Positions 140 through 23,914 of a DNA stretch of 50,144 nucleotides are shown in pieces. The first letter of the stretch is position 1. Each line of letters opens with the position of its first letter. The translations under genes and the position numbers were made by a program. The DNA comes from Sedimenticola sp. (lineage in GTDB: Bacteria > Pseudomonadota > Gammaproteobacteria > Chromatiales > Chromatiaceae): contig JAPHTA010000055.1 in assembly GCA_026196475.1 (NCBI GenBank), positions 1 through 50,144 of the forward strand, written 5' to 3'. The notes under the pieces were generated by a model. It was not told the origin of the DNA, did no database searches, and worked only from the letters and a program-made list of their open reading frames with translations.

Positions 140-215
140 TGGTGGAGCCAGGCGGGATCGAACCGCCGACCTCGACACTGCCAGTGTAGCGCTCTCCCAG
201 CTGAGCTATGGCCCC
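140..215 (-). tRNA. tRNA-Ala (anticodon GGC)
   Basis: Reverse complement GGGGCCATAGCTCAGCTGGGAGAGCGCTACACTGGCAGTGTCGAGGTCGGCGGTTCGATCCCGCCTGGCTCCACCA; anticodon loop CTGGCAG. Confidence 0.95.
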
Positions 216-228
216 AAACGAGGCGCGA

Positions 229-257
229 ATATTAAGGTATCCTTTACCGTTTGTCCA
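229..257 (-). promoter_or_regulatory. Candidate sigma70 promoter for tRNA-Ala (-35 TGGACA, 17 bp spacer, -10 TAATAT, GC-rich discriminator)
   Basis: Minus strand TGGACA-N17-TAATAT-TCGCGCCTCG just upstream of tRNA-Ala; spans the stop codon of the upstream CDS. Confidence 0.55.
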
Positions 258-1359
258 GCATCGGCGAGGGCAATTTTGCACCCACTCCTTTTAAGAGACG
301 GCGCAGTATCAGTTGACTGCTTTTTACCTCATCGTTACTCAGCACTAGATCCGGCTGTAGTCCACTGCCCTGACAGTGACTTTCATCCGGCAGAACAATT
401 TCAAGATTCGTATAGTGTAGCAACGACCCGTTTGACAAAGTCCGGATGGCTTGGGAAACGCATTTTCCACGACTATTCACGCCCACCAATTGAGCACGGC
501 CATGCGCCTGGAGGATGCCAGCAAAAATTTCGCCGGCACTGGCCGTGTTTCCACTGATCAAAAGGGTCAGCGGGTTACTGAATTTTCTCCCCGGTGGCGA
601 AAAATAGCGCTGTTCCAACCCTTTACGGGAGTAGGTAGATGTGAGTGACTTACCTGGGTGGAGAAACATCGCCGCACTGTCCATCGCCTCAAATAGATCC
701 CCTCCCTGGCAGTCGCGAAGATCCAGTATCAAAGCCCTGGATGTATCCTCCGCCAGAAGTAACGTCTGAAGAAAGGCACGGGTTTCTCTCGAAGCGAAAT
801 GTCTTAAACGAAGTTGGCGCTGGCCAGAGACATACACCTCTTCTACTGAATTTTGACTATAGTATTCCGGAAGTAATGAAACATGCTCAGTCGACTGGCA
901 GCCGTCAGTACAAAGATCAATTTCCAGAGAAACCCCATCCACTCCGGTCAAAACCGCAGTAACCTCTGCCGATGACATCCCGGCAACCCTGTTGCCGTTT
1001 ATGGCATGCAATTTTACCCGATCCTCGAACCCAGCCCTGAATAGTGGTCCACCTGAATAGGGCATCAGCCACAGGCCCTCTGCGTCCCTGTAGAGTTCTG
1101 CGCCTATTCCAAATTTCAGAACACCGACCGGTGCCTCATCAACACTCTGCAGCCTTGCCCACGGATCAATATGTTTCAATCCCTGCTCCAGGTTCCCAGC
1201 GGACAGCTTGTCCATTAGGACTTCATCCGGCTTTACCAACGCCCTTTGTCGCAGTACCGTACGTATCTCGTCAACAACCTGTGGGGGCACTGCCACTGGT
1301 GATGCCCAGTAGAGTGTGCAGACGACGGCCAATAACCATCGACGCATGCCTGATCTCAC
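244..1359 (-). CDS. S41-family (C-terminal processing) peptidase with PDZ-like region
   Basis: Signal peptide; S41-like GNTASAGEIFAG (Ser) and SRGKCVSQ (Lys) motifs; LILDLRDCQGG. Confidence 0.8.
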   Translation of the reverse strand: MRSGMRRWLLAVVCTLYWASPVAVPPQVVDEIRTVLRQRALVKPDEVLMDKLSAGNLEQGLKHIDPWARLQSVDEAPVGVLKFGIGAELYRDAEGLWLMPYSGGPLFRAGFEDRVKLHAINGNRVAGMSSAEVTAVLTGVDGVSLEIDLCTDGCQSTEHVSLLPEYYSQNSVEEVYVSGQRQLRLRHFASRETRAFLQTLLLAEDTSRALILDLRDCQGGDLFEAMDSAAMFLHPGKSLTSTYSRKGLEQRYFSPPGRKFSNPLTLLISGNTASAGEIFAGILQAHGRAQLVGVNSRGKCVSQAIRTLSNGSLLHYTNLEIVLPDESHCQGSGLQPDLVLSNDEVKSSQLILRRLLKGVGAKLPSPMLDKR

Positions 1360-1925
1360 TGCGAAAGCATAAGCGTCAGTTCGAGTAATGTCTCATACTC
1401 CTTCTGCAGTGCTTGACGCTGGGCTTCCAATTGCTGTCGGCGATCCGCAGTAAGGCCACCTGTGCCAGCACCTTCCAGGGTATCAGCACTTCCAATACCA
1501 TCCCTCTCAAGAGCATCCAGTGCTGAAGCATGGCTTGCCAGTTGATTTTTCAGCCTGGATATCCTTTGATCCAGTTCAGTTACGCGTTGGCGCGACACCT
1601 TCTCTTCCTTGTTCAAGGCGACCAGCTTGAACTCCAGTGCGTCCACATCAGAACTAAGCACTGCAAGTTTACCCTTCTCCTCTTGCAGAACTTGCTGTCT
1701 TTGTTGTTTCTGTCTAGCAAGTTGTTTGGACTCATTGTTTAGTTCATTCTGCATTTCCCGCATTTTCTCCAGGTTTGCCTCACGCTCCTGGGTACGGCGT
1801 TCATAGGCTCCACTGGTAAGTCCATGGACCCCGCCTAGAAACCCCCCTTCCCTGGGGTCATCCGTGGTGACACAGCCGGCAACCAGCCAGGCTGAACCAA
1901 ACACAATCAACAGCTGTAATTTCAT
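1356..1925 (-). CDS. Coiled-coil lipoprotein
   Basis: Lipobox LVAGC at N-terminus; long heptad-like Gln/Glu/Lys-rich region; 4-bp overlap with neighbouring CDS. Confidence 0.75.
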   Translation of the reverse strand: MKLQLLIVFGSAWLVAGCVTTDDPREGGFLGGVHGLTSGAYERRTQEREANLEKMREMQNELNNESKQLARQKQQRQQVLQEEKGKLAVLSSDVDALEFKLVALNKEEKVSRQRVTELDQRISRLKNQLASHASALDALERDGIGSADTLEGAGTGGLTADRRQQLEAQRQALQKEYETLLELTLMLSQ

Positions 1926-2611
1926 ACCGACAACCTCTCGTTTATCTGCGCCATTTGCTCACTATCCTTGCGCAGCCGTTCTATCTGGGCTTTGAGATCG
2001 CTGTTTTCCTTAACCAATTGGGTAATGTACGGGTCATCGGGCTTGCGTGACTTGCTCTCCTGGGCCAGAACTTCGGTATTGATCTCGTATTCTTTCTGCA
2101 GGGTTGACTCGAATTCCTGGTTTTTCGCAATCCGCTCATCCATTTCCTTCTTCTTTGCCAGTAGCTGATTCCTGGTTGCCTGGCCTGACTGATACATGGC
2201 ACGGAGAGAATCAGTCTCTTTGTCCAGGGCTACAATCTCCGCCTGGAGCCGCTCATTGTATGCCTTGGCAGTCTTGTTGAACTCGGCCGTTCGCGCAATC
2301 TCCGCATCCAGAAACTCTTCATTGGTGGCATATGCCTGTTTCCGCTTGGCTACCTCGTTCCCCACCAGGTATCCGACACCCGCACCCAAGGCTGCTCCGA
2401 GCGCCAGGTCCTCCTTGTCACCCCCGGCTGCAAGTCCCAGAAGTCCACCGAGAACTGCACCAAACACCGCTCCCTCAGTCTTGGTCCGGTCCGTATCCGA
2501 CTGATTGTTTCCTCCGCTAGCACTATCACTCTTCGGTGAATTGGTAACACAGCCAGTCACCAGAATACCCGACAGCACGAGTGGCACTATCTTGTTTAAC
2601 AAGACCTTCAT
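1922..2611 (-). CDS. Glycine-zipper plus coiled-coil lipoprotein (TagQ-position protein)
   Basis: Lipobox LVTGC; glycine zipper GAVFGAVLGGLLGLAAGG...GAALGAGVGYLVG; C-terminal coiled coil. Confidence 0.75.
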   Translation of the reverse strand: MKVLLNKIVPLVLSGILVTGCVTNSPKSDSASGGNNQSDTDRTKTEGAVFGAVLGGLLGLAAGGDKEDLALGAALGAGVGYLVGNEVAKRKQAYATNEEFLDAEIARTAEFNKTAKAYNERLQAEIVALDKETDSLRAMYQSGQATRNQLLAKKKEMDERIAKNQEFESTLQKEYEINTEVLAQESKSRKPDDPYITQLVKENSDLKAQIERLRKDSEQMAQINERLSV

Positions 2612-2621
2612 ACTTCACCTC

Positions 2622-4295
2622 TTACTCTATAAATGTGTTGAAAATGGTATTGAATTCCCGTGACCAGACCTCGTTTTCCAATGAGCGGGTCTCGTTATAT
2701 TCTCTAATATGCTTGTGTAGCAGCTCCAGGACCTTGTCTTCCCTTGTACTTAACGTCTTCTCTCGCATCATCCTGAAGGCATGCTCCCTGAACTCCTCTT
2801 CGTAGTCCCCGATCAATGCCACCTTCTCCAGGTAGGCCTTGAACTGTTCATTGGCTGCTGTACTGTTGTCCTGCAGAGACTTCTCAACCGCGTCCACCTG
2901 CGCCTGGTAGCGAGTAGACATCTCCAGAAGCTTTCTTGCCGTGACCATCGCCGTCTGCAACTTGGCGCGCTTGCTGACTAAAACACTGTAATTGGTCCCA
3001 TTTCTCGAGGCATCCTGGAGCAAACTGCGAGCGCTCTCGCGTTGCGCATCATCCAGTTGCCCCCTCGCCTTTTCAACATAGTTCTGTATTGCCTCGACTT
3101 GCGGCCGCGCATCGGGGTGACGATCGAGAAGTTGTTGAAGAACACTATCCACGGTCGCCAGTTGACTCGTCGCCTGGCTCACCAGGTTATCCAGACTTCT
3201 TCCAACGGGAGTTTCAGCACGCAATGCTTTGCGGTACTCGGCATACTCCTTTTCCAACGCGGTACGGGCGATGGAATTGACCACTACATTGGACCCCAGG
3301 GCCAACCGGGTTCCAATATTGAATGTTCTTCGCAGGATCATGCGCTTTTTTTCTTCGTTCCAGGCATAAGCGTCGAACTCTGTCCGGAAACTGGAGCGGA
3401 TGTCAGTGGTTGAGCTGGAGACGCTGGCCCCACGGATCGGTACACCTCCAGGTTTTCCCTGCCAGATCTCTGGCCGGAATATACCGGCTGTCATCTCATG
3501 TACATTGCCATGAAGATCATGCAAACCCAACGGATTGGGTTTTCTCATGCCCACTGGCCGCAACCTGTTCTTGGCATTTTTCAGATGCCAGGAATATTCA
3601 TTCAGTTGGCGTGATGCGAACGGTAATCTGTCATTGAATGTGCCGTCATTCAACGCCTCCATTCCACCTCTCGCGGCATACTCCCACTCGTCCTCTGTTG
3701 CCAGTCGAATAAAACCGGGTACACCATCGATCTTTGGCAACACCTTATGACGTTCCGGGTACTCAGGATCAAAAAGCCAGCGATTATAGGCTCGAAGAAA
3801 ATCTTCAACTGCCTGGTAACTTATCCAGGAAAGGGGCATGGCATTCGCCTGGTCGAGGGCACGACCTTTCAGCGTGGGATACTTCTTATCCTTCGGATCA
3901 CCACTGGCGGATATCAGGGCATCAACCCCCATCACGGCAACGTACTGCCCCTTGGTAAGCTCGTACTTTGCCAACCAGATTTTCCAGCGTTTACTCCCGC
4001 CTTCCTGAAAAGAGCCAGCCACCATGGTTCGCTGTACCCCTTCAAAGGCACCACCGGTGGCATCCCCCAGTTGAACCACCCGCTCACGGGAGCCCCAGAA
4101 CCCCTCACCTGGTACTTCAACCGGTCGCAAGACCAGTTCGGCACCTCCCGGCATTGGCAGTACAAGGTCGTTCTCATCCGGTTTCGGATTGTAAACACTC
4201 TTAGCGGGTATGGCTGCAGCTACCTGGATTGTCACCACCAGCGCTATCACGCAAACAAGGAAACTACTCTTCACGTATCGCCTCCGCCGGTTCAA
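2622..4295 (-). CDS. SUMF1/formylglycine-generating-enzyme-fold protein (TagR-like) with C-terminal coiled coil
   Basis: Signal peptide; FGE-family motifs YELTKGQYVAVMG, RLATEDEWEYAARGG, GLHDLHGNVHEMTAG, IRGAS; no Cys in mature protein. Confidence 0.85.
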   Translation of the reverse strand: MNRRRRYVKSSFLVCVIALVVTIQVAAAIPAKSVYNPKPDENDLVLPMPGGAELVLRPVEVPGEGFWGSRERVVQLGDATGGAFEGVQRTMVAGSFQEGGSKRWKIWLAKYELTKGQYVAVMGVDALISASGDPKDKKYPTLKGRALDQANAMPLSWISYQAVEDFLRAYNRWLFDPEYPERHKVLPKIDGVPGFIRLATEDEWEYAARGGMEALNDGTFNDRLPFASRQLNEYSWHLKNAKNRLRPVGMRKPNPLGLHDLHGNVHEMTAGIFRPEIWQGKPGGVPIRGASVSSSTTDIRSSFRTEFDAYAWNEEKKRMILRRTFNIGTRLALGSNVVVNSIARTALEKEYAEYRKALRAETPVGRSLDNLVSQATSQLATVDSVLQQLLDRHPDARPQVEAIQNYVEKARGQLDDAQRESARSLLQDASRNGTNYSVLVSKRAKLQTAMVTARKLLEMSTRYQAQVDAVEKSLQDNSTAANEQFKAYLEKVALIGDYEEEFREHAFRMMREKTLSTREDKVLELLHKHIREYNETRSLENEVWSREFNTIFNTFIE

Positions 4296-6099
4296 TTCGT
4301 GTTGCCTTCCATGCCGCTATCAATGAACTCGCTATAGCCAGTCCGAGGGAAGCAAGCAACGCCAACCAGGGATAACTTGCCGGTAAACGGCAGATCGCCT
4401 GTCCGTCAGAGAGTTCACCATCAAAGGTGTGATTGATCACCCCAGCCAGCAGGGTATAACCAAGCCAGCCCAGCATCACGCCAAGGATTGCGATCAGTAC
4501 CCCCTGAAAAACTGGAAATAGAAACACATCGGTGCGGGCAAGGCCGATCAGGCGGAGAATTCCAAGATCCTTGCGCTCACGTTCCACCGCGGCGTATAGA
4601 CTGGCGACGAGAACCGCGCCTGCCCCCACCACGCCCAGAATCGCGATCAACCAGAAGAGCTGTGTGAGGCCGCGGTCCAGGACCTGGATACGCTCTATGG
4701 CGTCGACTTCCGCTACCACCTCAAGCCCGTCGGAGCGAAAGCGCTCAACCAGCAAGGGAATATCATCGATGCTGCGACCGTAGAGCCTGAAACCACGGAA
4801 ACCTGCACGCTCAAGAAGCAAGCCGCTACTATCCGGATTGTAGCCGACCACCCTATCCCGGGCGGTGCGTAGCATACCAATCAGCTCCGCGGGTAAGAGG
4901 GCTATTCCCGGCTGGTAAACGCCCGAAACCCGAAGGGGAAAGTTCAGCGGCCTAATGCCTTCGAAATCGGCCCTGACAACCGATTTTTCAACCACATCAG
5001 CAGCGGGCCAGAGCAGTTGAAAAAGTCGGCTCGGCGACAGGGCGGTAGTGGATAGTTCACCCCAGGGAGGTACCGGCCAGCCCAGTCTCTCTGCCCAAAC
5101 AGAAGAGATGGAAAGACCCCGGGCACGAACTTTCTCCTCCCCTAGTGTGAGCGTAATCCCCTCGGCGTAAGGCAGCAGAAGCGCGTCTCTTCCCCGCAGT
5201 TTTCTTTTCAATGCGACAACAGATGACATGGTCACACTTCCGGAGGGTATTGAGAGGTCATAGGCAAACCACCCCTGGGTGAGGTTGAGACCGGTAACCG
5301 CGGTAAAATCCTGACTCTCCATCGAGACAGCCTTGAGCAGACCGGTATTGACCACCAGGCCGGTGCGAGTCACCGGGTCAAGGGGTATCTGGCTGACCAC
5401 CACCACACCATCAAAACTCATATAGGGGTAGGCCGACTCACCCCGCCAACCACGGGCCGCCACCTCCCGCCCCTCTTTATAGGATTCAACATCGACAACG
5501 AAATCCAGCGGTGCGTAAATTCGAGGGAGCGTGCCGGCCCGGGTGTCCAGCACAGCGACCACCTGCAACAACTGGTCAACATTCTCCATGCGGCCACCAC
5601 GGCTGCGAGTAACGCGTGCGGTCACCTGGTCACCGCTTGAGACCCCAAGCCGTCTTGCCGCCTCGCTGCTCAGGACACACTCTCCCTCCAGCGGAATCAC
5701 GCCGCTGTTTTCCAGCAGCAGCGGATCACCGCCCGCTGTCGGAACCAGGTCCACCAGTTCACCGCTGGCAGTTCCGCTGCGCAAGTGAATCATCGATGAA
5801 GCCGGAAGAATGGTGGGTATCAAAAAGGCTACACCTTGCTCATTGTGCAACCGGTCCAACCACTGCTGATCAAAGGTGCGTGTGATAGCAGGTCGAATTT
5901 CCCGATAGACCGGGTCCTGAACCAGCCGGTCGCGCAGGGTCTCGACTGTCCCCTCTTTCAATCCCAGCAAAATAAGCAATGGTGCAAGCACTGCAGCCAG
6001 GGCGGAGACAAGACACAGGGTCAATACCCACTCATGCCTGAGGTGTGCGGCGGCAAGAAACAATACCCGAAGACGCTGGCTACGAACCTCGCTCATCAA
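4264..6099 (-). CDS. FtsX/MacB-like ABC transporter permease (TagS-like)
   Basis: N-terminal TM, large periplasmic region, C-terminal TM cluster with ERERKDLGILRLIGL and KATRIEPAEAIREE, typical of FtsX permeases. Confidence 0.88.
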   Translation of the reverse strand: MMSEVRSQRLRVLFLAAAHLRHEWVLTLCLVSALAAVLAPLLILLGLKEGTVETLRDRLVQDPVYREIRPAITRTFDQQWLDRLHNEQGVAFLIPTILPASSMIHLRSGTASGELVDLVPTAGGDPLLLENSGVIPLEGECVLSSEAARRLGVSSGDQVTARVTRSRGGRMENVDQLLQVVAVLDTRAGTLPRIYAPLDFVVDVESYKEGREVAARGWRGESAYPYMSFDGVVVVSQIPLDPVTRTGLVVNTGLLKAVSMESQDFTAVTGLNLTQGWFAYDLSIPSGSVTMSSVVALKRKLRGRDALLLPYAEGITLTLGEEKVRARGLSISSVWAERLGWPVPPWGELSTTALSPSRLFQLLWPAADVVEKSVVRADFEGIRPLNFPLRVSGVYQPGIALLPAELIGMLRTARDRVVGYNPDSSGLLLERAGFRGFRLYGRSIDDIPLLVERFRSDGLEVVAEVDAIERIQVLDRGLTQLFWLIAILGVVGAGAVLVASLYAAVERERKDLGILRLIGLARTDVFLFPVFQGVLIAILGVMLGWLGYTLLAGVINHTFDGELSDGQAICRLPASYPWLALLASLGLAIASSLIAAWKATRIEPAEAIREE

Positions 6100-6899
6100 G
6101 GTATCTCCCTGCTACAGACCGAGTGGATTTCATTCTCCGCGTACTGGGTGACATGAAAACCGTAAGTGGTATCTGCGACGGGTTGTACCAGGTCCAGATC
6201 GTGGGTCACCATGATGATTGACAGCCCTTCATCCCGGGCCAGGGATCTAAAATCCTCCACGATCAGTTTGGCGCGTCGTTTGTCCACCGCGGCGGTCGGC
6301 TCATCGGCAAGTACCAGGCGGGGTGAATGCGAGAGAGCCCGCAGTATCGCCACCCGTTGTCGTTGCCCCCCGGAGAGTGATTCCGGCAGACGGTGCAGGC
6401 AGTTCGAGACCCCCATGCGCTGCGCCATATCAACCACCCGCTGTAGACCATCGGGCAAGCGGTTCAGGTTCATTGGCAACAACAGGTTTTTCCTCACGTT
6501 AAGGTAGGGCAGCAGTCCACCGGTCTGCAAGACGTAGCCAAGATACTGGCGGCGGATATCCGCCAGGGACACCTCATCATTCTCCATCCAGAGTTTCGCC
6601 ACATCACGTTGCTCACTGGCCGAGAAAACGAGGTGGTAGCAGGCCACACTGTCTGGCCGGGAGATCAGCGCGAGGAGATCAAGTAGGGTACTCTTGCCAC
6701 AGCCGCTCTCCCCCACTACCGCAACAAATTCACCCGGCTCTACAACCAGATCCGGAATCAGGAGCTGGAACCGGCTACCCGCATGCTCTTTGGTCTTGAC
6801 CACCTGTTTCAGCGTCAGCAGCGGCAACCCAACCGTCCTGCCGGATTGGGTTGGGATATGCTGCTGGCTATCGCTGCCACATGTGGTCTGGGTGTTCAA
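6096..6899 (-). CDS. ABC transporter ATP-binding protein (LolD/MacB type; TagT-like)
   Basis: Walker A GESGCGKST, signature LSGGQRQR, Walker B LVLADEPT, H-loop VTHD; 4-bp overlap with permease. Confidence 0.95.
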   Translation of the reverse strand: MNTQTTCGSDSQQHIPTQSGRTVGLPLLTLKQVVKTKEHAGSRFQLLIPDLVVEPGEFVAVVGESGCGKSTLLDLLALISRPDSVACYHLVFSASEQRDVAKLWMENDEVSLADIRRQYLGYVLQTGGLLPYLNVRKNLLLPMNLNRLPDGLQRVVDMAQRMGVSNCLHRLPESLSGGQRQRVAILRALSHSPRLVLADEPTAAVDKRRAKLIVEDFRSLARDEGLSIIMVTHDLDLVQPVADTTYGFHVTQYAENEIHSVCSREIP

Positions 6900-9034
6900 G
6901 GCAGATAGTCTATATGCAGAGGATGGACAAGCTCGCTGGCCGGGTCAGCTTCATTCAGTCGATGCCACGCATCAACTTGCTCGTTTATCGCCAGATACTG
7001 AGCCAACTTGGCCTTCAGGCTCCACTCAAGCTGAACCCTCTGCTCCGCCGTCATACTGGCAAACATCTCGTTACTCAGGGAGAGAATATCGCTGTGGTAG
7101 GGGAGACTGTTGATAAAGGCTGGGAGCAGGCCGGTCTCAGCAAGACTCTGTTCACGGCCCAGATCCTCCGGTCGTTTCAGCGTCTGCCCGGAAACACTCT
7201 GCAGCGCTTCAAAGAACTGGCCCTGGCTCATTTTGGCCTTATCAAAGGCATCAAGTACCCGGCTTAGTGCCTGAACCAGGCTGCTCAACTGTTCTCTTGT
7301 TACCAGCACCCGAACTTCCAGGGCAGCATCCGCTGGATTCAGCATATCCCGGTCCATAACCCATGCGACGATATCTTTTGGAGGGCGGGCGCCCTTGCCA
7401 AGATACTCGATCAGTGCGGCTTCCCAGACCTTGTCCGTCGCCATCCTGCCCTGAGTGGCAACATCCACATCCGCATCATACTCCGGCATCGGAGGTGGCG
7501 GCGGCAGGCTTCGCAGGGCAAGGGACTGTTCAAACCGGCTTGCCACACCCCCCACCACGCTATCGACGGCAGCCTGAAAATCCCCCTCTTTGAACGCGTT
7601 GACCTGGACCAGCGCTTGCTCACTGTCACTACCCCGAACCTGTGCCAGGTGTCCAAACTGGGTGATGGCCAGATCATGGTCCTCTGCCGCTCGTTCATCC
7701 TGGAGATGGATCGAGATCAGGTGAATACCGGAATCATCCAACTCCCGACGCAGGTCGGTTTCATCCTTGCCGGTAGTATTCTGGGGATGCCCCCTTGGAT
7801 GGGCGCTGGCATCACCAACCAGCACGATGAAGCGCAGCGCACCTGGCCGCCATTTTGAACGCATACCGAGATCAACACCGGCAAACACCTCTTCTGCATA
7901 GTCATGACTGCCAGCGGGAGTGGCCCTGGCTTCATTGGACAGGATATCGATCAGTGTCCCGGCGTCGACCAACTCCGGGGTAAAATTTCGGCTTGTATAC
8001 TCCACTGCTGGAGCCGCTGCGATAGAATCCCGGTATCCGACAAGGCCAAATTTCACCTTGTCCTTGAGTCGATCCCCGGTAGCCTGAACCATGCGGCGTA
8101 CTGCATTACGGGTCTGGTCAATATAGGGTTGCATGCTACGTGTGGTATCCATTACAAACACCACATCGATCGACAGGTTGGTGAGCCCAGCACCCTTGTC
8201 AACCTCACGCCCGGTGCTGGCCTGTTCCATGTAGCCGCTCTCCTTTAGCGTATCAGCCCCACGCTGCCCGGGCACCGCCGCTGCAATCTGTAACAGCCGC
8301 ACCTCGTCACCATATATATTCAACTGCTCCCAATCGAGAATCGGCAGAATATAGAACTGTCGATTGATGTCGATGTAGCGTCTGGGCTCCATGCTAACCA
8401 CGGACTCCGGTACCTTAGCCTCTTCCACCGCCTGGTAGATCTCCCCGGCCCTGGTCAGCATATCGTCGGCATTGACGATGTTGCGCAACGAGGAGGCATT
8501 CTTGAACATCAAAACCGGTTGCCGACCCTCAGCGACCCCACCCGGATGTGTATAGGCAACGACCAGCGCCTGCCGCCACTCGAGGGCATCCCGCGCCTGC
8601 ACCCAGCCGAGGATCTGCTGTTTGTTGCTTCCCACCTGGTACCACCCCTTGGGTTCAGACGGGTCGCTTAGATCAATATCCTCCCTAGCGAATACGTAGA
8701 GTGGCCTGAACGCTTCAATATTGGCATAGGCTACCGCGTCTGCATCGGGCTGCCGGCTAAGGTATATATTGGTAAAAGGCCTTGGTAGCACCTGCATCGG
8801 CAACCCCGTGGCGGTTTCAATACAGGGTGAAGTACCACTGCACTCAACAGGAGAAGCACTGATGCTCCCCTCAAGGTCATCCGCGGAGGATACACCCCCT
8901 CCCTCCAGTGCATCGACTTCCGTCGATACCGAACCCTCCAGAGCATCCGCTCCGGTATCGGCCATGGCCGTGCTACTGAATAAAAAAGCAAGCAGCACAA
9001 CGGTGATGAACCGTTTCTGTAATTTACATCTCAT
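6896..9034 (-). CDS. Secreted von Willebrand factor A (vWA) domain protein with SH3-like N-terminal region
   Basis: ORF called 6896..9070, likely start Met at 9034 (MRCKLQKRFITVVLLAF signal peptide); vWA core DVVFVMDTTRSMQPYIDQTRNAVRRM, FGLVGYRDS, FIVLVGDAS. Confidence 0.88.
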   Translation of the reverse strand: MRCKLQKRFITVVLLAFLFSSTAMADTGADALEGSVSTEVDALEGGGVSSADDLEGSISASPVECSGTSPCIETATGLPMQVLPRPFTNIYLSRQPDADAVAYANIEAFRPLYVFAREDIDLSDPSEPKGWYQVGSNKQQILGWVQARDALEWRQALVVAYTHPGGVAEGRQPVLMFKNASSLRNIVNADDMLTRAGEIYQAVEEAKVPESVVSMEPRRYIDINRQFYILPILDWEQLNIYGDEVRLLQIAAAVPGQRGADTLKESGYMEQASTGREVDKGAGLTNLSIDVVFVMDTTRSMQPYIDQTRNAVRRMVQATGDRLKDKVKFGLVGYRDSIAAAPAVEYTSRNFTPELVDAGTLIDILSNEARATPAGSHDYAEEVFAGVDLGMRSKWRPGALRFIVLVGDASAHPRGHPQNTTGKDETDLRRELDDSGIHLISIHLQDERAAEDHDLAITQFGHLAQVRGSDSEQALVQVNAFKEGDFQAAVDSVVGGVASRFEQSLALRSLPPPPPMPEYDADVDVATQGRMATDKVWEAALIEYLGKGARPPKDIVAWVMDRDMLNPADAALEVRVLVTREQLSSLVQALSRVLDAFDKAKMSQGQFFEALQSVSGQTLKRPEDLGREQSLAETGLLPAFINSLPYHSDILSLSNEMFASMTAEQRVQLEWSLKAKLAQYLAINEQVDAWHRLNEADPASELVHPLHIDYLP

Positions 9035-9116
9035 CACGTCTTTACCTCTTGGTTCAGGGAAGGGCGCCAACCGTCATCAAAACCCAATCGACACATTACC
9101 AACATCCACATTCCAT

Positions 9117-15100: not shown

Positions 15101-15440
15101 CAACCGCCGCTGGGGTCAAAGTCAGTTCGATTGCCTCCCGGGCACCGTTCGCGAGGCTGATCTCCTGTGACAGACTCTGGTAATCCGCCTGCTCCACGCT
15201 CAGTTTGTATTCTCCCCCGGGCAGACCTTCGAAGATTGCCATACCCCGAACATCGGTGGCGGCGTGGCGGTCACCAATATGTATCCGGACATTGGCAAGG
15301 GGCTTGCGGGTTCCGTCAATGTTCTGCTCGAAGACCTTCACCCCCAGCGGACCGGGTGTCTCGGCATGGGCAACGGAAGCGTTGATCATGATCAGCAACA
15401 ACAGGCAATAGAGTAATCGTGCTGTGCCTGACTTCATCAT
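9117..15440 (-). CDS. Giant (2107 aa) exported multidomain protein: carboxypeptidase-regulatory-like domains, five PPC-like repeats, Ig/CARDB-like domains, C-terminal TPR-like module
   Basis: Signal peptide; GxYxLxV-type CarboxypepD_reg-like repeats; five repeats ending in EWG[NS]N; Dx[DN]xDG motifs; C-terminus GELTRAIEKYRQSLRLYPDYRLEAH. Confidence 0.85.
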   Translation of the reverse strand: MMKSGTARLLYCLLLLIMINASVAHAETPGPLGVKVFEQNIDGTRKPLANVRIHIGDRHAATDVRGMAIFEGLPGGEYKLSVEQADYQSLSQEISLANGAREAIELTLTPAAVVQWGGQVVIDALDQPITGVMVELDPVKVKSSLSGRAHSITTWDGRFQFVDLPVGQYRLSATAPGFTSINQEVDVLPVDRSKQAQFDAPKVDGVALDICREWGKNCNKPTADLFCQQQGYFESDTFGIEKDQPPTRIISSGKLCKDKSCDRISWIKCIGEKQEPLVLKLKAEAKTISQVIRVTDGVTGQPIPDASVQLAETWPSGAIAGMKSDRTGRVSFQTLKLGVVNRQDEQGGVLIARRQVTAHVEAEGYVPAVVPLMLSEGSSELGISLTPLVEQEEVEPNNDFEHAQTVRIGAPIRLRIAERGDQDFFKFRLTEPSRLLLSIDGGSLETLIQLRDNDGKLLKEQGGGAGKTNRFERDLNRGSYSVAVTEWGNNGADPEQSMILNLIAKPAVDPNEPNQDLESARVIHLNQQVSGLIWPVGDHDFYKLEVKQAGILRLSDLHKSLQRHVKIYSNLGKLLAEQGGYANKPLSLEYAAAPGTYVIEIQEWGSNDASLEPYRLAVEMLPDDGVVDPVQEPGEMRAARSLQSHTWFASTILPIGDRDLFSVNIPGAGVLRMQSKGPMQRHLKVFDAEGKLLQQVGAYENSPGELNWHADGPQTVFVSIEEWGNNSYSPLPYSMRVWFERADEIDYQQRNETFEEAAPLLPGDTVHGSYLPLGDQDYYAVDIDFPGVLQVSAVSAQQTHLRVFDSRHKMIAERGAYENKTAGVSPEVNRGIYYILVSEWGNNTASTEPYELKVSLQRAEPGETEPLVEDEPRELHDGVAQSFSIDQRGDRDRFVFELEEAGEIRLNVASQVQIQVRVFDDHSGEKIHESGHYDPVKWSLPLKFDQPVRLRIELNEWGNNATSKQPGFIMIDTRGRTLQADHIESTPDGSFPERVSFKRVALKHADPAQRCELDLDGDGRTDLSLDSDQEKKGRFPREGRYVVESKCIGADGQIARQRFWVQATGNRTREGIALFLNTPLEGQTIDRPVKLLAQAISYSGRPVAGVRYRLDGQALATVYSTPYDAEVNWQTLSAGKHTVEVVAYDANGVEAKVSRQFNLSEYFDLSPPDGAVLSGEVVRVSWQAPQHGESLLRYRKKGSKDWQVVRGESGRLRVVELKGLEATVPYEIQPMGGLEDGPIQTLTRVKGLAFGRSRYGANIRRDYDQRVGISVRNNSDEPLSVRLECGKPKDSDLLVSFVGEGSEDKPINLGPGETRDFLLGISAQDVDTADHTVPIRIVSDSGLSDEAEVAVHVRLPHVELVWEDLGPLPLGHGRKLRLRNKGDTITDLQVSSEKNQAVRISPTIQHGLLTSGGSLEFTVTPRFYEGFQGVQSKILARGLDKSFNYPYEMKLAEGESVRRIWLFPGIDPTDDLLHEKEPELIANAVKAEQLDPSEVDWSRYNNPEDLDRDGRADRWSMNLGDVRWVGDDTDADGEVDFIHADIADDGIFEYSAILENEEWHKTNLVEAWLEMGFSLPWNRTSYHPHDTDIVLNGIVIGSLRDTIPEGNYSFRIPPAALRFDKSGLPGSNKVGINSKHLRGGHYVVNSDFRFKFRLTATPVWTVAKTEADARRSVAQLGGVAITSPDLSISSAELRLDAPDEAKVGDEIKVEIPVRNLGSVAVPEVDVVLFRKNPRGRREELARVVVDRITLHGAATAKFAWKATAGSSRFMLVVDPDNRLDDIDNVNNEAIFFLPIKSDKKPIKITLNKPKANGTSATPMITLQATVNPEAGIVEPSLSIDGGLWQELQSTSEKITAELLLQPGKHRLQLKVVDAAGNSATETIELEVKAPAPEARIVSPRASETIAERHAHVVIAIPENLAMVAVRAAGGPWHKAVRIGTEAHVDLPIRFGNQTIEAIVADKSGVVNLLTQDIVCSAQPKADEKRVVAGAEQEGLLWPRADSDLAIDLFQTRNGILQLTERKQRRAAPESAKETAANTAAMDPNMRARYEEAKRLRMVGARLQGQGELTRAIEKYRQSLRLYPDYRLEAHIALIEDALNGRLQDKGR
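12540..14280 (-). repeat. Five tandem PPC-like protein repeats (about 350-360 bp period) inside the 2107-aa CDS
   Basis: EWGNN, EWGSN, EWGNN, EWGNN, EWGNN encoded near 13975, 13625, 13265, 12910 and 12560. Confidence 0.85.
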
Positions 15441-18427
15441 TTACGCTCCACGATAGAGGGAAGCACTACCGGTGCCTCGATCTGAGGCCTGTTTGTGCAG
15501 TACCAGTCCTTCTGCTTGTGATGGGCCGTAATGTAGGTATTGTTCTTGCCTTTCTTCAGGTTAAGGTCTTGAATCAATGAATCGACAAGACTGATTTTTT
15601 TGCCATCTTTGGTCAGCTGGGGATGCTTGGCAAAGAGTTCGGCATTTTTCTGCAGGCGGTCACGTATATCCGAGAACTTGACGCCAGGGGGCAGACGCAG
15701 ACGACCTGAGCGCAGGTCACGGCAGATCCGGACAATACTGTCCCCGGCCTGGAATTGCTGATCGAGGGCTGCGGGGTCGTAGCCGGTAATTGCTTCAGTC
15801 GCATCAAATTCGACCGATGTGCCACCACCTGCACCCAAGCCCAACGTGGCTGCAACTTTGGCTCCAAGCCGGATTTTGGTCCATGAGAGTTCAGCATCCA
15901 CTTTGGCCTCAGCCCCGGCACCGGCTGAAACCTCCCCCTGCGCCTTGCCAGTGAGTTTGATGCCCCACAACGATAGTGAGGCTTCTGCTGCTGCCTCTGC
16001 TTTTCCACCGATAAATACCTTGGCCTCTGCCGATCCAGCGATACGGTCAGAACCGAGATGTGCTTCAGCGGTGCCTTTGCCCTCCGCGCCAACCTTCGCA
16101 GTAGTTGATATCTTCCCTCCGACGGTGGCCTTACCGATTTTCTTTTCAGCACTACCGGTAGCCGTTGCCTTTATTGCATTCACTTCGGCATTGACGTCAA
16201 CCTTGGCATGCAAACCGCGCTTGTTTGCAGTTACTTCCCAGTTACCCGTAGAGCCATATTGACCAAGCTGGACCTTCGCATCACCGCCATATTCAACACC
16301 TGAGTCCGTTCTTCCGGCGGTACTGGTTGCCGCTGTCTTCTTTGCCTCATCGACGGGATCAAATAACTTACCGCCAGCAATTTTGACATTAACCTTGGTA
16401 GGGTCCCCCACCCGTTCACCATCCTTTGGCTCATTGGGGTCACCACCAGGCTTGAGGTCACTTTCATAAACGCCTTGGGTCGTGCGCGATTTTGACCAGG
16501 GCTTGTCGGTGGTTGTCGTGGTCACATTGGTGGTCGTTTTACGCCCATCGTCATCCGTGCTCGTTGTACTGGAAGACTGACTAGTTGTAGTAGTCTTTAT
16601 ACCAGTTCTATTGTCGGTGGTAGTGGAACGTCCGGTTTGGGTTGTACGCTTATGTCCGTCCTGTTCTTCCTCGATTGTGTGACTATTTCTCTTAGTTGTC
16701 GTAGTTCCACCGCCACCGGGTAGCCAGCTGTTTTTTGACTGGTGTGTCGTGGACTGCTCATTGGTGCTGGTCCTTTTGCCACTCTTGTCAGTTCGCGAAT
16801 TGGTGGTTTTTGTTGAATCACTTCTTCGGGTTACCTGACCACTGGCATCACGATCGACCTCGGATGTCTTCGCGGTCGATGAACTGGTTTTTTTCCCTTC
16901 GTATCCAGTCGAATTCTGACGGGTGCTACGAGTTGTACCGTCGGCGCCTTTTTCAATTATCTTTCTGTTCTGCTGGGTGGTTTTCCCACCGCCTGGAGTA
17001 CGCTTGTTTTCAGTGCGGCTGGTTCGCGTGGTTTCACTGCCATCGGCATCACGTGTTTTTGAAGTGATAGTTTTTGTATTCCTATTTCCTTCACGCTCGT
17101 CCGTCACCTTCCATTTACTGTTTTTTGCCTCTCCCCTGCGCTCCCTTGCAACTGCGTTCCGCTGTTGCTCCTGTTGCCTTTCTGCTGCCCGATTGGCCCG
17201 GTTTTTAGCCTGGCTGCCGATTGCCATTTCGTCTGGTTCCGGCTGCTTTGGCAAACCGGCCCTTTTTCGTGCATCTGTATTTGCGGAACGAGCCTTTTCG
17301 TTGGCCTCGTCAAGGGTCTTGTTACGTCCACGAATATTCTTTGCAGTATCCTCGGCATTCGGGTCGGCACGGCCTTTAGCATTTTTCTCCGCAGTTTTCG
17401 CAAGCGCCTCACGCACCTCTCTGATTTTTTGAGATTTTTTGGCCGCTACCGGCTTGGTATTCTGCACCTCCTGATCGGCTTGCTGTATCCATTTTTTCTC
17501 ATCCGCCTTCTGCTGTTCAGGGGTTGCACCCAGGGGGGTGATACCGGTCTCAAACTTATCTCCATAGTTTCTCAGCTTACGGGCTTGGTTGATTACCTCC
17601 GAATCATGACCTACCTCGTCGGCCGTTTTGCTGACACTCTTACCCATGGTTTTAAGGGCCATGTCACGCTTCAGCTGAGCCTCCGGAGAACGGTTGTTGA
17701 TGTCGGTATTTTCGAAATCTTCAGCCCCGTGGATAAACTTTTTCTCATTATCCAGGACATACCCCTCGGGGTCCCTTATGGACTCGGCACCCTTTACATC
17801 GGTCGCCTGCTTGCCGCCCGGGGTAGAGAAAGCATCATGGTACTTTTGCCGTTCGGCCAACTGCTTGTCAGAAGGGGGTTGCCAGAGCGTGGTGTCTTTT
17901 GACTTGTTGATGTATATACCCAAATCTTCATCATAATCGACGTCATCGCCCCGAGCCCGCCACTCATCAGCAATCTGCGCGGCAATATCACGGTCACTAG
18001 CAGTAATATCAACATCTGCCCTGACATCTTTAGGTGAACTGCCCGTGGTCTTGATTTGGGATCCATAGCGTCGCTGTAGATCTTCTAGATCCTGTCCCCG
18101 GCTATCGAGACCATTGAACTGAGATTGGATTTCGGACTTGTCCCTGGTGTAGTCGCTGAGCGCTTTCTGGTAATCAGGATGACTGGTATCTACAGTACCA
18201 TCAGCCTTGATTAGATCAGGGTTGTTGCGGACCCTCGAGTGGTAGTTGCTCTCCAGGACTTTCAGTGCGTTCTGCTGACGAACCCGAAGCTCGTCGATAC
18301 TGTCTGCCGGGAAAACATCTAGTGGCAGTCCAGTCAATAACAGAAGTACGATGACCAATAACCATCGATGGATGTCAGCGCACCCGTTATGCACTTGCCG
18401 GAAAGAGTGATCAGTAAATACCGTCAC
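15437..18427 (-). CDS. 996-aa exported low-complexity protein: charged N-terminus, Thr/Ser/Arg-rich repeat region, Ala/Gly-alternating region, folded C-terminus
   Basis: Long ORF overlapping both neighbours; N-terminal hydrophobic segment; TTRTSRTENKRTPGGGKTT...TTTTTTDKPW; AKVGAEGKGTAEAHLGSDRIAGSAEAKVFIGGKAEAAAEAS. Confidence 0.8.
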   Translation of the reverse strand: MTVFTDHSFRQVHNGCADIHRWLLVIVLLLLTGLPLDVFPADSIDELRVRQQNALKVLESNYHSRVRNNPDLIKADGTVDTSHPDYQKALSDYTRDKSEIQSQFNGLDSRGQDLEDLQRRYGSQIKTTGSSPKDVRADVDITASDRDIAAQIADEWRARGDDVDYDEDLGIYINKSKDTTLWQPPSDKQLAERQKYHDAFSTPGGKQATDVKGAESIRDPEGYVLDNEKKFIHGAEDFENTDINNRSPEAQLKRDMALKTMGKSVSKTADEVGHDSEVINQARKLRNYGDKFETGITPLGATPEQQKADEKKWIQQADQEVQNTKPVAAKKSQKIREVREALAKTAEKNAKGRADPNAEDTAKNIRGRNKTLDEANEKARSANTDARKRAGLPKQPEPDEMAIGSQAKNRANRAAERQQEQQRNAVARERRGEAKNSKWKVTDEREGNRNTKTITSKTRDADGSETTRTSRTENKRTPGGGKTTQQNRKIIEKGADGTTRSTRQNSTGYEGKKTSSSTAKTSEVDRDASGQVTRRSDSTKTTNSRTDKSGKRTSTNEQSTTHQSKNSWLPGGGGTTTTKRNSHTIEEEQDGHKRTTQTGRSTTTDNRTGIKTTTTSQSSSTTSTDDDGRKTTTNVTTTTTDKPWSKSRTTQGVYESDLKPGGDPNEPKDGERVGDPTKVNVKIAGGKLFDPVDEAKKTAATSTAGRTDSGVEYGGDAKVQLGQYGSTGNWEVTANKRGLHAKVDVNAEVNAIKATATGSAEKKIGKATVGGKISTTAKVGAEGKGTAEAHLGSDRIAGSAEAKVFIGGKAEAAAEASLSLWGIKLTGKAQGEVSAGAGAEAKVDAELSWTKIRLGAKVAATLGLGAGGGTSVEFDATEAITGYDPAALDQQFQAGDSIVRICRDLRSGRLRLPPGVKFSDIRDRLQKNAELFAKHPQLTKDGKKISLVDSLIQDLNLKKGKNNTYITAHHKQKDWYCTNRPQIEAPVVLPSIVERK

Positions 18428-19313
18428 TACCGATCTCCTTCATCAGAGTGGCAGCTTTTTCCTTGATGCCAGCATCGACTTTGGAATCATTCAGAATGGC
18501 TCGAAGTTCCCTCTGCGCTGCTTTGGTTTGACCTAGCTTGATCTGGGTTTCGGCAAGATAGAGGGGAAGCACCTGGGAGTCACTGCCTGCATTCCGCGCT
18601 TCCAAATAGCGCTTCGATGCCTCCTCTATGCGGCCAAGGTCATCTAGAACAGTAGCAAGTAGAAACAGGAATTCAGGATTGCCGGGATCCGCCTTTACGG
18701 CTTCTTCCAGTAACCGGATCGCCTCATCCCCTCTCCGCATTCCAAGCAGCAGTACGGCAAGACGGTAACGTGATGCCGCATGATTGGGGTCCGCCTTGAT
18801 AGCCCGCCGCAGATGCTCTTCGGCAGGTCCAGTCTGACCAGACGCCATCAAGATCTGGCCCATGTTGTACCAGGAATCAGCCCGTTTCGGATCAATATTT
18901 ACCGCTGCCTTGAAATTGACCATGGCTTCATTGATCTGCCCTTGCTTCAATGCCAGTACACCGAGATTGTTATAGGTCTCAGCAAACAGCGGATCTGCAT
19001 CCAGGGCGCAATTGTAGTTCTTTTTTGCCTGCTCAAACTGACCCTGTGCCAGAGCGATATTCCCCAGAAGATTGCAAGCATCCTTATCATCGGGATTCTC
19101 CTTCAGAATGGCTTCAAGATGCGTTTGCGCCTGCTCGATACTGCCTTCCCTCAGCGCCTTTTCAGCCAGTCTGAATCGCTCGTCCACGATTTCCTCTCCG
19201 CTGTGTAAGTTGAATGATATAGCCAGAGTAGCGATCAGCAGCAGAGCAGCCAGCCATCGCCTTGTGCGGCAAATCTGCCGCAGTTTGCTGCCTGTTAGTT
19301 TGGTTTGCATCAA
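18411..19313 (-). CDS. TPR-repeat protein with N-terminal signal/anchor
   Basis: Tandem TPRs: ACNLLGNIALAQGQFEQAKKNYNCAL, TYNNLGVLALKQGQINEAMVNFKAAV, SWYNMGQILMASGQTGPAEEHLRRAI. Confidence 0.88.
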   Translation of the reverse strand: MMQTKLTGSKLRQICRTRRWLAALLLIATLAISFNLHSGEEIVDERFRLAEKALREGSIEQAQTHLEAILKENPDDKDACNLLGNIALAQGQFEQAKKNYNCALDADPLFAETYNNLGVLALKQGQINEAMVNFKAAVNIDPKRADSWYNMGQILMASGQTGPAEEHLRRAIKADPNHAASRYRLAVLLLGMRRGDEAIRLLEEAVKADPGNPEFLFLLATVLDDLGRIEEASKRYLEARNAGSDSQVLPLYLAETQIKLGQTKAAQRELRAILNDSKVDAGIKEKAATLMKEIGSDGIY

Positions 19314-19334
19314 CCCATCTCCCGTTAAATCGGC

Positions 19335-20630
19335 TTACTCATGCCAGTCGACACCAACAAGCTCAATCAAACGCGCACTGGCCTGCTGTCCTTGGAGCGT
19401 CTGGTGCCCCTGGTCGGTCCGCATCACCTGCCTGTACTGTGCAATGGCAGATGAGCGGTCACCGATTCTCTCCAGGGCATCGGCATACTCCAACAGCTCC
19501 TGAATCTGCGGCATCTCGACAAAGGCCATCTTGCTGAATTGCTCCCGGTAAAGCCGGGCCACCTCATCCCACTTCTGCGCCTGTATCAGCCCAATCATCT
19601 GGATTCGGTTTCGAGCCACTCGCAGCCATAGATCGCTCATATCATAGTCAGCTGCCTGTTCACCACCGGCTGTTTTTTCCACCTGCCGGTAGATCGAAAG
19701 TGCCCGATCGCGTTCTCCTGCACCCTCCAGCGCACGGGCATAATCGAGCATAATCACCAGGTAGTGACTATTCTCGAGACTCAGGTCTGCAATAGTGCTG
19801 TCGCGAAGTTCAACGGCCCCTTGCCACTGCCCGGTATCCTCATAGAGCCGAAGCAGGCGCTGACGCATCTTCTCTGCCAATTCGGTATCTACGTAGCGTG
19901 ACAGGTAGTCTTCCAGAAGGCGTCTCAATTTGAAGTATTCTGGTGGATCCATGCCGATCCGGTAGAGGTTGGATAACCTGAAGTAGGACTCTTCCGCCTG
20001 CTCAGTATCGGGGCATTCATCTATCAACTGCAGGTAGAGCGCCTCAATCTGCTCATAGTCATAGCGATCGGCCTGGCGAATCTGTTCAAATAACTGCTCC
20101 GCCCGCACCTGCTGCTGTTCCAGCGTCAGAGTGGGATCCGCCTCTGTTGCCGAATCAACTGCCGGCGGTTGTACATTCTCCGGTACCACCGCACCCTGTT
20201 GCCCCACAATGCGGACAATACCGACATTTCCTTTTGTCGGGTTGCGCGACCAGGTACCGGGTTCTGAATCAAGTACGGTGTAAGTACCCGCCTCAAGTGG
20301 TTGGTTCGGCGTGACTTCCCAGTAGGCGTTGACCAGCCCTTTTTCATTTGTCTTACCTTTTGCAACCCAGGGCCCGAACAACTTCTTGTCTTTTCCCTGT
20401 AGCGCAATTGAGCCTGGTTTTGCTCCCTTCCCCTGGTTCCAGTGAAAGGTCTGTATACGGGTGATAGTGCGGCGATCATAGAGGGTAAATCGAGTCGGTT
20501 TCAACGGAACACTATCCACCGGAGTAGCCATGGTAGTGTCATAGATCACGTCGGATTGTGCCGTAGCGAGGCCGGGGGCCATGATCGAGAGCAGGACGGT
20601 CACGAGGACGTGATATCGAAGGCTGGCCAT
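19335..20630 (-). CDS. Exported protein with N-terminal beta domain and C-terminal TPR/Sel1-like helical region
   Basis: ORF called to 20714; likely start MASLRYHVLVTVLLSIMAPGLATA at 20630 with GGAG-type RBS; FHWNQGKGAKPGSIAL...GTYTVLDSEPGTWSRN; TPR-like ALYLQLIDECPDTEQAEESYFRLSNLYRIG. Confidence 0.82.
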   Translation of the reverse strand: MASLRYHVLVTVLLSIMAPGLATAQSDVIYDTTMATPVDSVPLKPTRFTLYDRRTITRIQTFHWNQGKGAKPGSIALQGKDKKLFGPWVAKGKTNEKGLVNAYWEVTPNQPLEAGTYTVLDSEPGTWSRNPTKGNVGIVRIVGQQGAVVPENVQPPAVDSATEADPTLTLEQQQVRAEQLFEQIRQADRYDYEQIEALYLQLIDECPDTEQAEESYFRLSNLYRIGMDPPEYFKLRRLLEDYLSRYVDTELAEKMRQRLLRLYEDTGQWQGAVELRDSTIADLSLENSHYLVIMLDYARALEGAGERDRALSIYRQVEKTAGGEQAADYDMSDLWLRVARNRIQMIGLIQAQKWDEVARLYREQFSKMAFVEMPQIQELLEYADALERIGDRSSAIAQYRQVMRTDQGHQTLQGQQASARLIELVGVDWHE

Positions 20631-20655
20631 GTTTATTTCTTCTCCAACTGACTTA

Positions 20656-22671
20656 CTACTTGCCACCGGCCAACACCTTTTCGAGAAGCTGGACATGTGC
20701 CTCCAGCCGGTCATCGGGGTAGAACGTCAGACTGTGACGGTACTTCTCAACCGCTTCTCTCAGTTTTCCCTGCTCCTGTAGTGCCGCGCCCTCGCTACGC
20801 AAGGTACTGGCTTTCTGGTACCGCTGTCGCGCATCGATAACTGCTGCATTTTCAGGTTCTGCATCAACATCGGGTGGAATACGGGTATCCGCCCTATAAG
20901 CCCCTGGCAACGTCACCTCGTTTTCAACCTGTCCCGGGTTGTGAACAGGCTCCTCCCTGGCAGGCCTCTCCGGGGTGTCTGGCAGGTCAACAGCGAGCGT
21001 GGGTTTAATGGCTGTCGCAGCCTGGTCACTCTCAAGTGGCGCACTCTCCCCCGCGACCTCTGTCCGTTGATTCTGACCTTCGGCTTCGCTGCCTACCGCT
21101 TTTCCACCAATGGCGCTTGCAACCTCTGGTGCAAGTCCTTTCTTCCCGGCTGTACCGGTACTAACTCCTGTTGATACCGCTGGTTGATCGACCTTCTCCG
21201 GCAGGCTGGCAGCAACCGGGGCCTTTGTTCGCACTACCGGTGTCTCGCTCTCCCATTCCGGTCCAAAGGCGATCGTCTCCATTACTCGCCTGTGGAGAGC
21301 GGTATCCGGCTCGGCGAGAGCAGCTGGCTTGGTAGCAAACTGCAGGTAAAAAAACGAGGGAGTGTTCTGTTGACTGGTCGCCCCAAAACGCATTCGGGTA
21401 TCGAGGATATAGTAGTCGTAGAGCGTCTCGACCTTGTCAGAGCCGGTATGCCGCTTGCGATAGTGGGTTGCAGGATAACCATCGATGGTCAACTGTTCAA
21501 GGACCTCGGACGGGTGCTCGTAACCCTTTATCGGATGCACGTTCGTGGTATTGTGAATAATGCTGGCCCTGATATCAGCGCCTGTGGTAAGTGATCTGTC
21601 ATACCAGCTGAGCTGGTACCTGGTATCCTGATTTTTCCGCCAGCTTCGCGGTACCTCTATTTGCATCCCCTGGCTCCACTCGTAGGCTATCAGCTCATCG
21701 CAAGGCCCTGCCTGTTCCGGCAACGTCAACCGAACACTGTTTAGCAACTGCTCCAGCGCCTCTTTATGCTCCGACAGTTGTTCATCAGTCCCTGTTATGG
21801 CATATCCAAAGCGATCACCCTTGGCCAGACAGATATCTGAGAGATACAGAACAGTAGTTGCAGGAATTGTCTTTTTGCGCATCGGTGTTGCGTAGGTGGT
21901 GCCGATACCTGTAGCGCTAATCCTCCAGGCGGGAATACCGAACATCTCTGATTTCTCTAACACCGGTTCTTTCATCTTGCTAAGCATCCCGTTGCTACCA
22001 GTGAGATGGTAGCCATGGGCGAAGCGAATCAGTCGGGCTCCGTACAGCGAGAGTAGTGGTGGCTCCCAGGAAACATTGTCTGAATGGTCGGTCATCTCCC
22101 AGTTGTTACGTACCTCCAGGCTGAACAGCCCATCAAAGAGATCGTGTCGACTGTATCCCTGCAAAGTGGAAACCAATTCAGGCGTGGCGCTTATGCTTGA
22201 CATGACCTTTTCAATAACCGGTGTCCATTGATCAACGGGCATCCCGACAACCGAAGCGCTCAGTGAGATCTTGTCACCATCCGGCAACAGTCCCTCGACG
22301 ATTATCACCCTGAGAAACGCATCCAGTTCCTCGATTTGACCCGATATCTGATGCTGATTGGCTGAGAGTTCACCCACCTTGACATCACCCAGCGACGTCA
22401 CCGTCATGCCATCCTTTTCTGCCCGTTTCAGCGTTTTTTCAGGATGTCGCTCGCGGGTCAAATTGACCCCTATCGCCTGACGCTCCTCCTTGTTCTTGAT
22501 ACCCCACTGGCCTTCGAATTCGCGCTCCCTGAGTGCCGCCCAATCGGCTGGAATGGAGAATACCAAGCCGCCATGGGTAACTTGCTTCCAGTCCGCGGGA
22601 ATCTCTGCCAGCCCGACCAGGGGAAACAGCAAAATTAAAGCAAGCAAAAGCCAGGGAGTATTTTTATTCAT
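20656..22671 (-). CDS. Exported protein with three PsbP/DcrB-like modules and a C-terminal TPR-like module; first gene of the operon
   Basis: Signal peptide; three similar modules starting GLVFSIPADW, GLFSLEVRNNW and GMQIEVPRSW; C-terminus LREAVEKYRHSLTFYPDDRLEAHVQLLEKVL. Confidence 0.8.
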   Translation of the reverse strand: MNKNTPWLLLALILLFPLVGLAEIPADWKQVTHGGLVFSIPADWAALREREFEGQWGIKNKEERQAIGVNLTRERHPEKTLKRAEKDGMTVTSLGDVKVGELSANQHQISGQIEELDAFLRVIIVEGLLPDGDKISLSASVVGMPVDQWTPVIEKVMSSISATPELVSTLQGYSRHDLFDGLFSLEVRNNWEMTDHSDNVSWEPPLLSLYGARLIRFAHGYHLTGSNGMLSKMKEPVLEKSEMFGIPAWRISATGIGTTYATPMRKKTIPATTVLYLSDICLAKGDRFGYAITGTDEQLSEHKEALEQLLNSVRLTLPEQAGPCDELIAYEWSQGMQIEVPRSWRKNQDTRYQLSWYDRSLTTGADIRASIIHNTTNVHPIKGYEHPSEVLEQLTIDGYPATHYRKRHTGSDKVETLYDYYILDTRMRFGATSQQNTPSFFYLQFATKPAALAEPDTALHRRVMETIAFGPEWESETPVVRTKAPVAASLPEKVDQPAVSTGVSTGTAGKKGLAPEVASAIGGKAVGSEAEGQNQRTEVAGESAPLESDQAATAIKPTLAVDLPDTPERPAREEPVHNPGQVENEVTLPGAYRADTRIPPDVDAEPENAAVIDARQRYQKASTLRSEGAALQEQGKLREAVEKYRHSLTFYPDDRLEAHVQLLEKVLAGGK

Positions 22672-23904: not shown

Positions 23905-23914
23905 TTTAACCTCC

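Follow-up and report, generated by a model that had tools for sequence, protein, structure and literature searches.

How the TagQRST proteins and PpkA of Pseudomonas aeruginosa perceive their stimulus and pass the signal on is a question not yet answered, and natural versions that keep the vWA-TagT-TagS-TagR-TagQ set while lacking the kinase and the type VI secretion system (T6SS) set the sensing core apart from that output. What does such a core do? One lies in Sedimenticola sp. (assembly GCA_026196475.1, here G000), within a stretch of 50,144 nucleotides of contig JAPHTA010000055.1 (the window), where 12 consecutive and tightly packed minus-strand genes, P0012 to P0001, span positions 244-22671. 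Five of them, P0007 to P0003, are by sequence almost certainly homologous to, and collinear with, the periplasmic part of ppkA followed by tagTSRQ. The answer favoured here, to which roughly even odds are given, is that these five form a stand-alone, kinase-free trans-envelope sensor/transducer of the TagQRST/PpkA type, acting on a scaffold of giant proteins that would be located in the envelope or on its surface.

H1-type T6SS clusters (loci L133-L137) served as the Pseudomonas reference. In Pseudomonas genomes, the vWA-family profile recovers two classes of protein: 11 stand-alone (approximately 665-690 residues) and around 30 fused (approximately 1000 residues). The fused proteins are taken to be PpkA because those examined sit in clusters of the order DotU-IcmF-TagF-PppA-PpkA-TagT-TagS-TagR-TagQ. 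P0007 aligns with PpkA at 28% identity over 630 residues (E 4e-64), the alignment being confined to PpkA residues 396-992, and thus P0007 is without the kinase domain. P0006 shares 44% identity with Pseudomonas TagT, and P0005 shares 37% and 30% identity with TagS in two blocks flanking a 200-residue insert. P0004 matches TagR (hhalign 99.8%, E 1.5e-30), whereas the match of P0003 to TagQ (hhalign 97%, E 9e-11) covers only some 102 columns, mostly glycine zipper, with position and lipobox the same. The resemblance to TagTSR(Q) and the vWA part of PpkA that the initial annotation had proposed is, on these alignments, real homology with an identical gene order. Its labels for the products (S41, lipoprotein, FGE, FtsX, ATP-binding cassette [ABC], vWA, PPC, and TPR) are likewise borne out by Pfam, with E values of 1e-6 for the vWA domain of P0007, 6e-24 for the ABC domain of P0006, 2e-13 for the FtsX domain of P0005, and 7e-22 for the FGE-sulfatase fold of P0004; a PDB search with the vWA-family profile gave no match. 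The single cysteine of P0004 sits in the signal peptide and the catalytic FGE cysteines are absent, so that a role as a catalytic FGE/SUMF1 enzyme was rejected.

Common to the window and the H1-T6SS system are the vWA-protein domains outside the kinase, the glycine-zipper lipoprotein, the FGE-fold protein, a LolC-class permease, and a LolD-class ATPase. The window differs in having no fused kinase, T6SS, PppA, or TagF, in the 200-residue permease insert, and in the addition of giant, TPR, and S41 genes. For the TagQRST-PpkA system of P. aeruginosa, the stimuli are mechanical force and damage to the outer membrane (PMC11881912, PMC10482370), and the response to such damage, whether mechanical or chemical, follows within seconds (PMC11881912).

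The first matter to settle is whether a T6SS is involved at all. No Tss, TagF, kinase, or phosphatase/PP2C gene was seen around the operon and a Pkinase profile found nothing on the window contig, in agreement with what had been annotated from the sequence. TssC was not found in G000 (91% complete) nor in three further carriers of the module, G002 (99%), G003 (100%), and G018 (98%); the description of a module without T6SS therefore holds for the window genome and for three of its four closest carriers, and the idea of a T6SS remnant was rejected on the absence of TssC from the four genomes. A T6SS lacking its own TagQRST, which had been named as a possible refutation, is not present in G000 but does occur in the fourth carrier, G017, whose T6SS cluster on contig C35 (L159/L160) contains Fha, TagF, and PppA and gives way at its PppA end to unrelated genes, with no PpkA or TagQRST adjacent. 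That cluster, which leaves room for a role of the module in trans in G017, together with the co-occurrence of module and TssC above expectation (7/16 vs 4/39, Fisher p 0.009, in a 55-genome sample), would suit an orphan regulator that acts on a T6SS in trans; given the four carriers without TssC, and the contradiction for the window genome in particular, this is highly improbable.

The ABC pair itself raises a second possibility, namely that P0006 and P0005 work like LolCDE or MacB and extract or push the giants or lipoproteins towards the outer membrane, with P0004 and P0007 as periplasmic chaperones. Among solved structures, the permease profile indeed comes closest to LolC, LolF, and LolE (LolC being nearest), the ATPase lies nearest the DevA, LolD, and bacteriocin-export families, and every other product of the operon is exported. 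LolCDE equivalog cut-offs are nevertheless missed by far, at 41.7 against 362.45 bits for the permease and 124.6 against 307.75 bits for the ATPase, and a LolCDE duplicate was rejected on this basis; compared with LolCDE, MacB, and FtsEX, the permease and ATPase superfamily is common but an equivalog match is absent and the partners differ. Nor was a MacA-like adaptor or an outer-membrane channel recognised in the operon. Finally, an alignment scan of genome contigs, used because a scan with the single P0007 sequence gave no match, returned at least 528 relatives of the vWA protein. Among the best 80 of these, the vWA, ABC, and FtsX genes are nearly always together, the FGE and lipoprotein genes are present in most, and the order is fixed; most carriers keep this core without a giant protein, which argues that giants are not its general substrate. 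An export or assembly machine is thus rather unlikely, although it is, together with a detached kinase (below), one of the two main rivals of a sensor that acts on a scaffold. Mechanotransmission is the generally accepted mode of action of FtsX-type ABC systems, and it is this, along with the damage sensing of P. aeruginosa TagQRST-PpkA and the nearness of the permease to LolC, that favours a sensor/transducer.

A partnership between the core and the giant proteins is very probably a dedicated one. G002, G003, and G017 have all 12 genes, identically ordered, at 49-82% identity, and G475, which belongs to another family, has ten genes (P0001-P0009 and a P0011-like gene) at approximately 37-54% identity; the block is therefore conserved, a point on which the initial annotation had wanted a check. 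The vWA proteins of the window, G003, G017, G475, and G018 group as a monophyletic clade of five, supported at 100 and set off from all other forms by a branch of 2.04 changes per column, and the permeases of this clade carry the insert; G002 has the same operon as the window and is not among these five sequences. G018 has different giants (approximately 4633 and 3798 residues, lengths obtained by joining two overlapping stretches; Big_5/CarboxypepD) ahead of its two vWA copies, and the permease insert of approximately 200 residues has matches only in the window and G475 among 369 genomes of the class. Full-length P0012 is present in 4 of 194 genomes of the family. Were giants and core separate units that are neighbours by chance, the frequent occurrence of the core without giants and the failure to find P0010 and P0012 in G475 would be easily accommodated, but not so a gene order shared by two genera and mostly kept in a second family, the clade-specific insert, or the different giants in the same position in G018; this explanation is hence given very little credence. 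Two side observations concern these carriers: in G475, an additional secreted NHL-repeat protein of 1461 residues is encoded between the vWA and ATPase genes (L154 1308-5693), and in G018, genes for an FHA-domain protein and a kinase-FGE fusion are found approximately 6 kb upstream of the giants and the duplicated vWA genes (L155 1-3533).

Within the products, two sorts of element may hold core and giants together. The mature N terminus of P0007 contains three ADALEG-type motifs, its homologues have two to three, and P0002—whose relatives hold the same position in many compact modules—has one. The pattern occurs in 12 open reading frames (ORFs) within 2.0 million ORF residues, and 7 of the 12 are P0007 or P0002 homologues; this rarity and concentration suggest, at the level of sequence, a common binding partner for the two. 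The second element is a C-terminal TPR tag of approximately 65 residues that ends both P0008 and P0012 (BLAST E 1e-14 to 1e-30 among their homologues), with a similar end on the P0011-like protein of G475. AlphaFold models the P0012 tag with high confidence, whereas the P0012 model overall is of low confidence (pLDDT 45). Pfam matches in P0012 are limited to this TPR end and a PsbP match in the PDB (residues 18-56) is non-significant at E 0.35; an earlier description of P0012 as a triple PsbP/DcrB-like protein was hence not confirmed. P0009 is without relatives in Pfam or the PDB, where a search with its C-terminal profile also gave no match. Its N-terminal region is helical-looking and is followed by a Thr/Ser-rich low-complexity stretch (residues 430-660) and a conserved C-terminal domain (residues 680-996) of around ten amphipathic strands and then helices, on evidence that includes a low-confidence model.

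Export signals or membrane segments are present in 11 of the 12 products: the ATPase P0006 is the sole soluble cytoplasmic product, P0005 is the permease, and the other ten have an N-terminal signal peptide or lipobox in their sequences. The giant secreted proteins are inherited together with the core. In the sensor/transducer proposed here, the TagQ-like lipoprotein P0003 and the coiled-coil lipoprotein P0002 would sit at the outer membrane, and the pseudo-FGE protein P0004 and the SH3-vWA protein P0007 would span the periplasm as a bridge. The LolC/MacB-class pair P0006/P0005 would set or reset this bridge via ATP-driven mechanotransmission. Rather than promoting dimerisation of a fused kinase that licenses T6SS assembly, the bridge would have as its dedicated target an extracytoplasmic scaffold built from P0008 and P0009. 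The TPR proteins P0010 and P0011, with the C-terminal TPR tags that P0008 and P0012 share, would organise this scaffold, and the S41 protease would trim it or turn it over. The net role would be to sense local envelope damage or load and to assemble or repair a giant-protein structure there.

Cores without a linked T6SS are common, and in many proteobacteria, they are the downstream half of an srfABC operon. TagQRST without T6SS is thus not new in itself and was partly noted in 2013: TagQRST/PpkA genes beside srfABC without T6SS machinery were published for oral Deltaproteobacteria (PMC3608642), and TagQRST/PpkA-like genes with srfABC have been mentioned for Xenorhabdus (PMC6950479). TssC is absent from 17 of 50 genomes with a stand-alone core; in genomes that have both, TssC and the core usually lie more than 100 kb from each other or on separate contigs, the linked exceptions being Inquilinus-type loci (L067, L123). 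In Pseudomonas, enterobacteria, and Alphaproteobacteria, SrfB (PF07520) and SrfC (PF10139) lie directly upstream of the core in the locus tested with Pfam, and homologous genes are upstream in the other loci examined from these groups. In L095, L113, L083, and others, srfABC continues into a small upstream gene of no assigned family, a vWA gene, and TagTSRQ-like genes, sometimes with a second vWA gene; the usual annotation is that of a toxin or virulence factor, but srfABC and these genes probably make up one functional unit. The srfABC operons (Pseudomonas, Citrobacter, Kluyvera, and Alphaproteobacteria) resemble the window in a stand-alone SH3-vWA gene that has no kinase part, with ABC, FtsX, FGE, and, in many cases, two lipoprotein genes after it and any T6SS unlinked, but differ in the upstream SrfB/SrfC and in the separate clade of their vWA proteins. 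SrfB was not found in G000 nor, among the relatives searched, in any that carries the giant form, and neither SrfB nor SrfC is among the Pfam families of P0008-P0012; a SrfABC variant was rejected for want of SrfB.

Compact modules of the same bacterial family (Allochromatium warmingii, Chromatium okenii, and Thiohalocapsa; L053-L055) have the same core order as the window but are distinguished by an upstream separate kinase gene, no giants, and a 400-residue permease. In several such Chromatiaceae modules, a Hanks kinase-transmembrane (TM)-Sel1 gene lies directly upstream of the vWA gene, whereas others retain only a TM-Sel1-like protein homologous to its C-terminal part; no homology was found between this Sel1/TM protein and P0010 or P0011. 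These modules bear on the second main rival, in which the output is an unlinked PpkA-like kinase controlled by P0007 from the periplasm, the threonine-phosphorylation pathway having been split. Kinase-TM-TPR homologues with approximately 46-52% identity to the PpkA kinase domain exist in all of G000, G002, G003, G017, and G475, and the FHA and kinase-FGE genes upstream of the giants in G018 also fit; against this, the gene is unlinked in G000, G002, and G003, in a conserved and housekeeping-looking neighbourhood, and it may also occur in genomes without the module. A detached kinase is accordingly considered quite unlikely.

Several points nonetheless weigh against a sensor that acts on a scaffold. 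The kinase-TM-TPR protein of G000 (L191 8513-10033, contig C159), approximately 48% identical to the PpkA kinase domain, may phosphorylate in trans. The operon encodes no cytoplasmic output, and thus the term 'sensor' is, in this analysis, owed entirely to the behaviour of homologues. P0008 and P0009, beyond their export, are placed only as a predicted scaffold, and the AlphaFold models of P0012 and of the P0009 C terminus are of low confidence. A promoter-like site was not found in 22500-23500, the single transcript being only predicted.

A kinase- and T6SS-free version that shares its operon with two giant secreted proteins and their helpers suggests that the sensor is a general, re-pluggable device. 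Tentatively—and with the odds somewhat against it—TagQRST-vWA may be an output-agnostic envelope transducer, in which case the window clade would join PpkA/T6SS and SrfABC as one more class: purely extracytoplasmic, phosphorylation-free, and assembling or repairing a giant scaffold recruited via ADALEG motifs and TPR tags. Comparison of the three partner sets (PpkA/T6SS, SrfABC, and giants) could point to the residues that belong to sensing, and the window argues against labelling every TagQRST/PpkA-vWA locus a T6SS remnant.

Features of the operon and its downstream flank, with coordinates in the window
Feature	Coordinates	Strand	Description
P0012	20656..22671	-	671-residue secreted protein, first gene; N-terminal domains of no assigned fold, disordered linker, C-terminal TPR tag
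P0011	19335..20714	-	459-residue secreted TPR protein
P0010	18411..19313	-	300-residue secreted TPR protein
P0009	15437..18427	-	996-residue secreted protein
P0008	9117..15440	-	2107-residue secreted giant; CarboxypepD_reg, PPC, Big_7, CARDB (Pfam), C-terminal TPR tag
P0007	6896..9070	-	periplasmic SH3-like and vWA protein; homologue of the non-kinase part of PpkA
P0006	6096..6899	-	TagT-like ABC ATPase; Walker A, LSGGQ signature, and H-loop present
P0005	4264..6099	-	TagS-like FtsX-type permease; insert of ~200 residues at residues 222-430
P0004	2622..4295	-	TagR-like FGE-fold periplasmic protein
P0003	1922..2611	-	TagQ-like glycine-zipper lipoprotein (glycine zipper by Pfam)
P0002	1356..1925	-	coiled-coil lipoprotein, one ADTLEG motif
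P0001	244..1359	-	S41-type protease, last gene; Pfam S41 1.7e-30
tRNA-Ala(GGC)	140..215	-	directly downstream of operon; likely insertion site with tRNA-Glu(TTC)
terminator-like hairpin with T-run	111..129	-	between the two tRNAs; consensus scan only
tRNA-Glu(TTC)	4-79		beside tRNA-Ala(GGC)

All 12 ORFs were confirmed, and the junctions from P0012 to P0001 measure -59, +21, -17, -4, +46, -4, -4, -32, +10, -4, and -4 nucleotides (-59 and -17 as computed with the longest ORF). Five are 4-nucleotide overlaps, as the picture of mostly overlapping minus-strand genes had it. Homologues of P0011 begin approximately 28 codons further in than the longest window ORF, and its true start is probably near 20630. 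Upstream, 750 bp lie between the first gene of the operon and two adjacent ferritin-like genes (23425-24442), and around 28 bp past the last gene come tRNA-Ala(GGC) and then tRNA-Glu(TTC).

The tRNA flanks, the lower G+C content, and the patchy occurrence within the genus suggest that the operon is gained and lost as an island. Its G+C content is 0.546 against 0.616 for 24000-50144, and approximately 0.50-0.58 in three other carriers; within the genus, it is present in three of nine sampled genomes, the window's included, two of the others being incomplete. No integrase was seen. In G017, it lies beside aconitase B with no tRNA near, whereas in the window, it precedes one tRNA-Ala/tRNA-Glu pair, in G003, it lies behind two, and in G002, it is between two, as expected for a tRNA-targeted island. 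The pairs adjoining the operon, tRNA-Ala(GGC)/tRNA-Glu(TTC), are at 4-215 in the window and at L037 4584-4803, L038 7821-8038, and L035 6533-7235.

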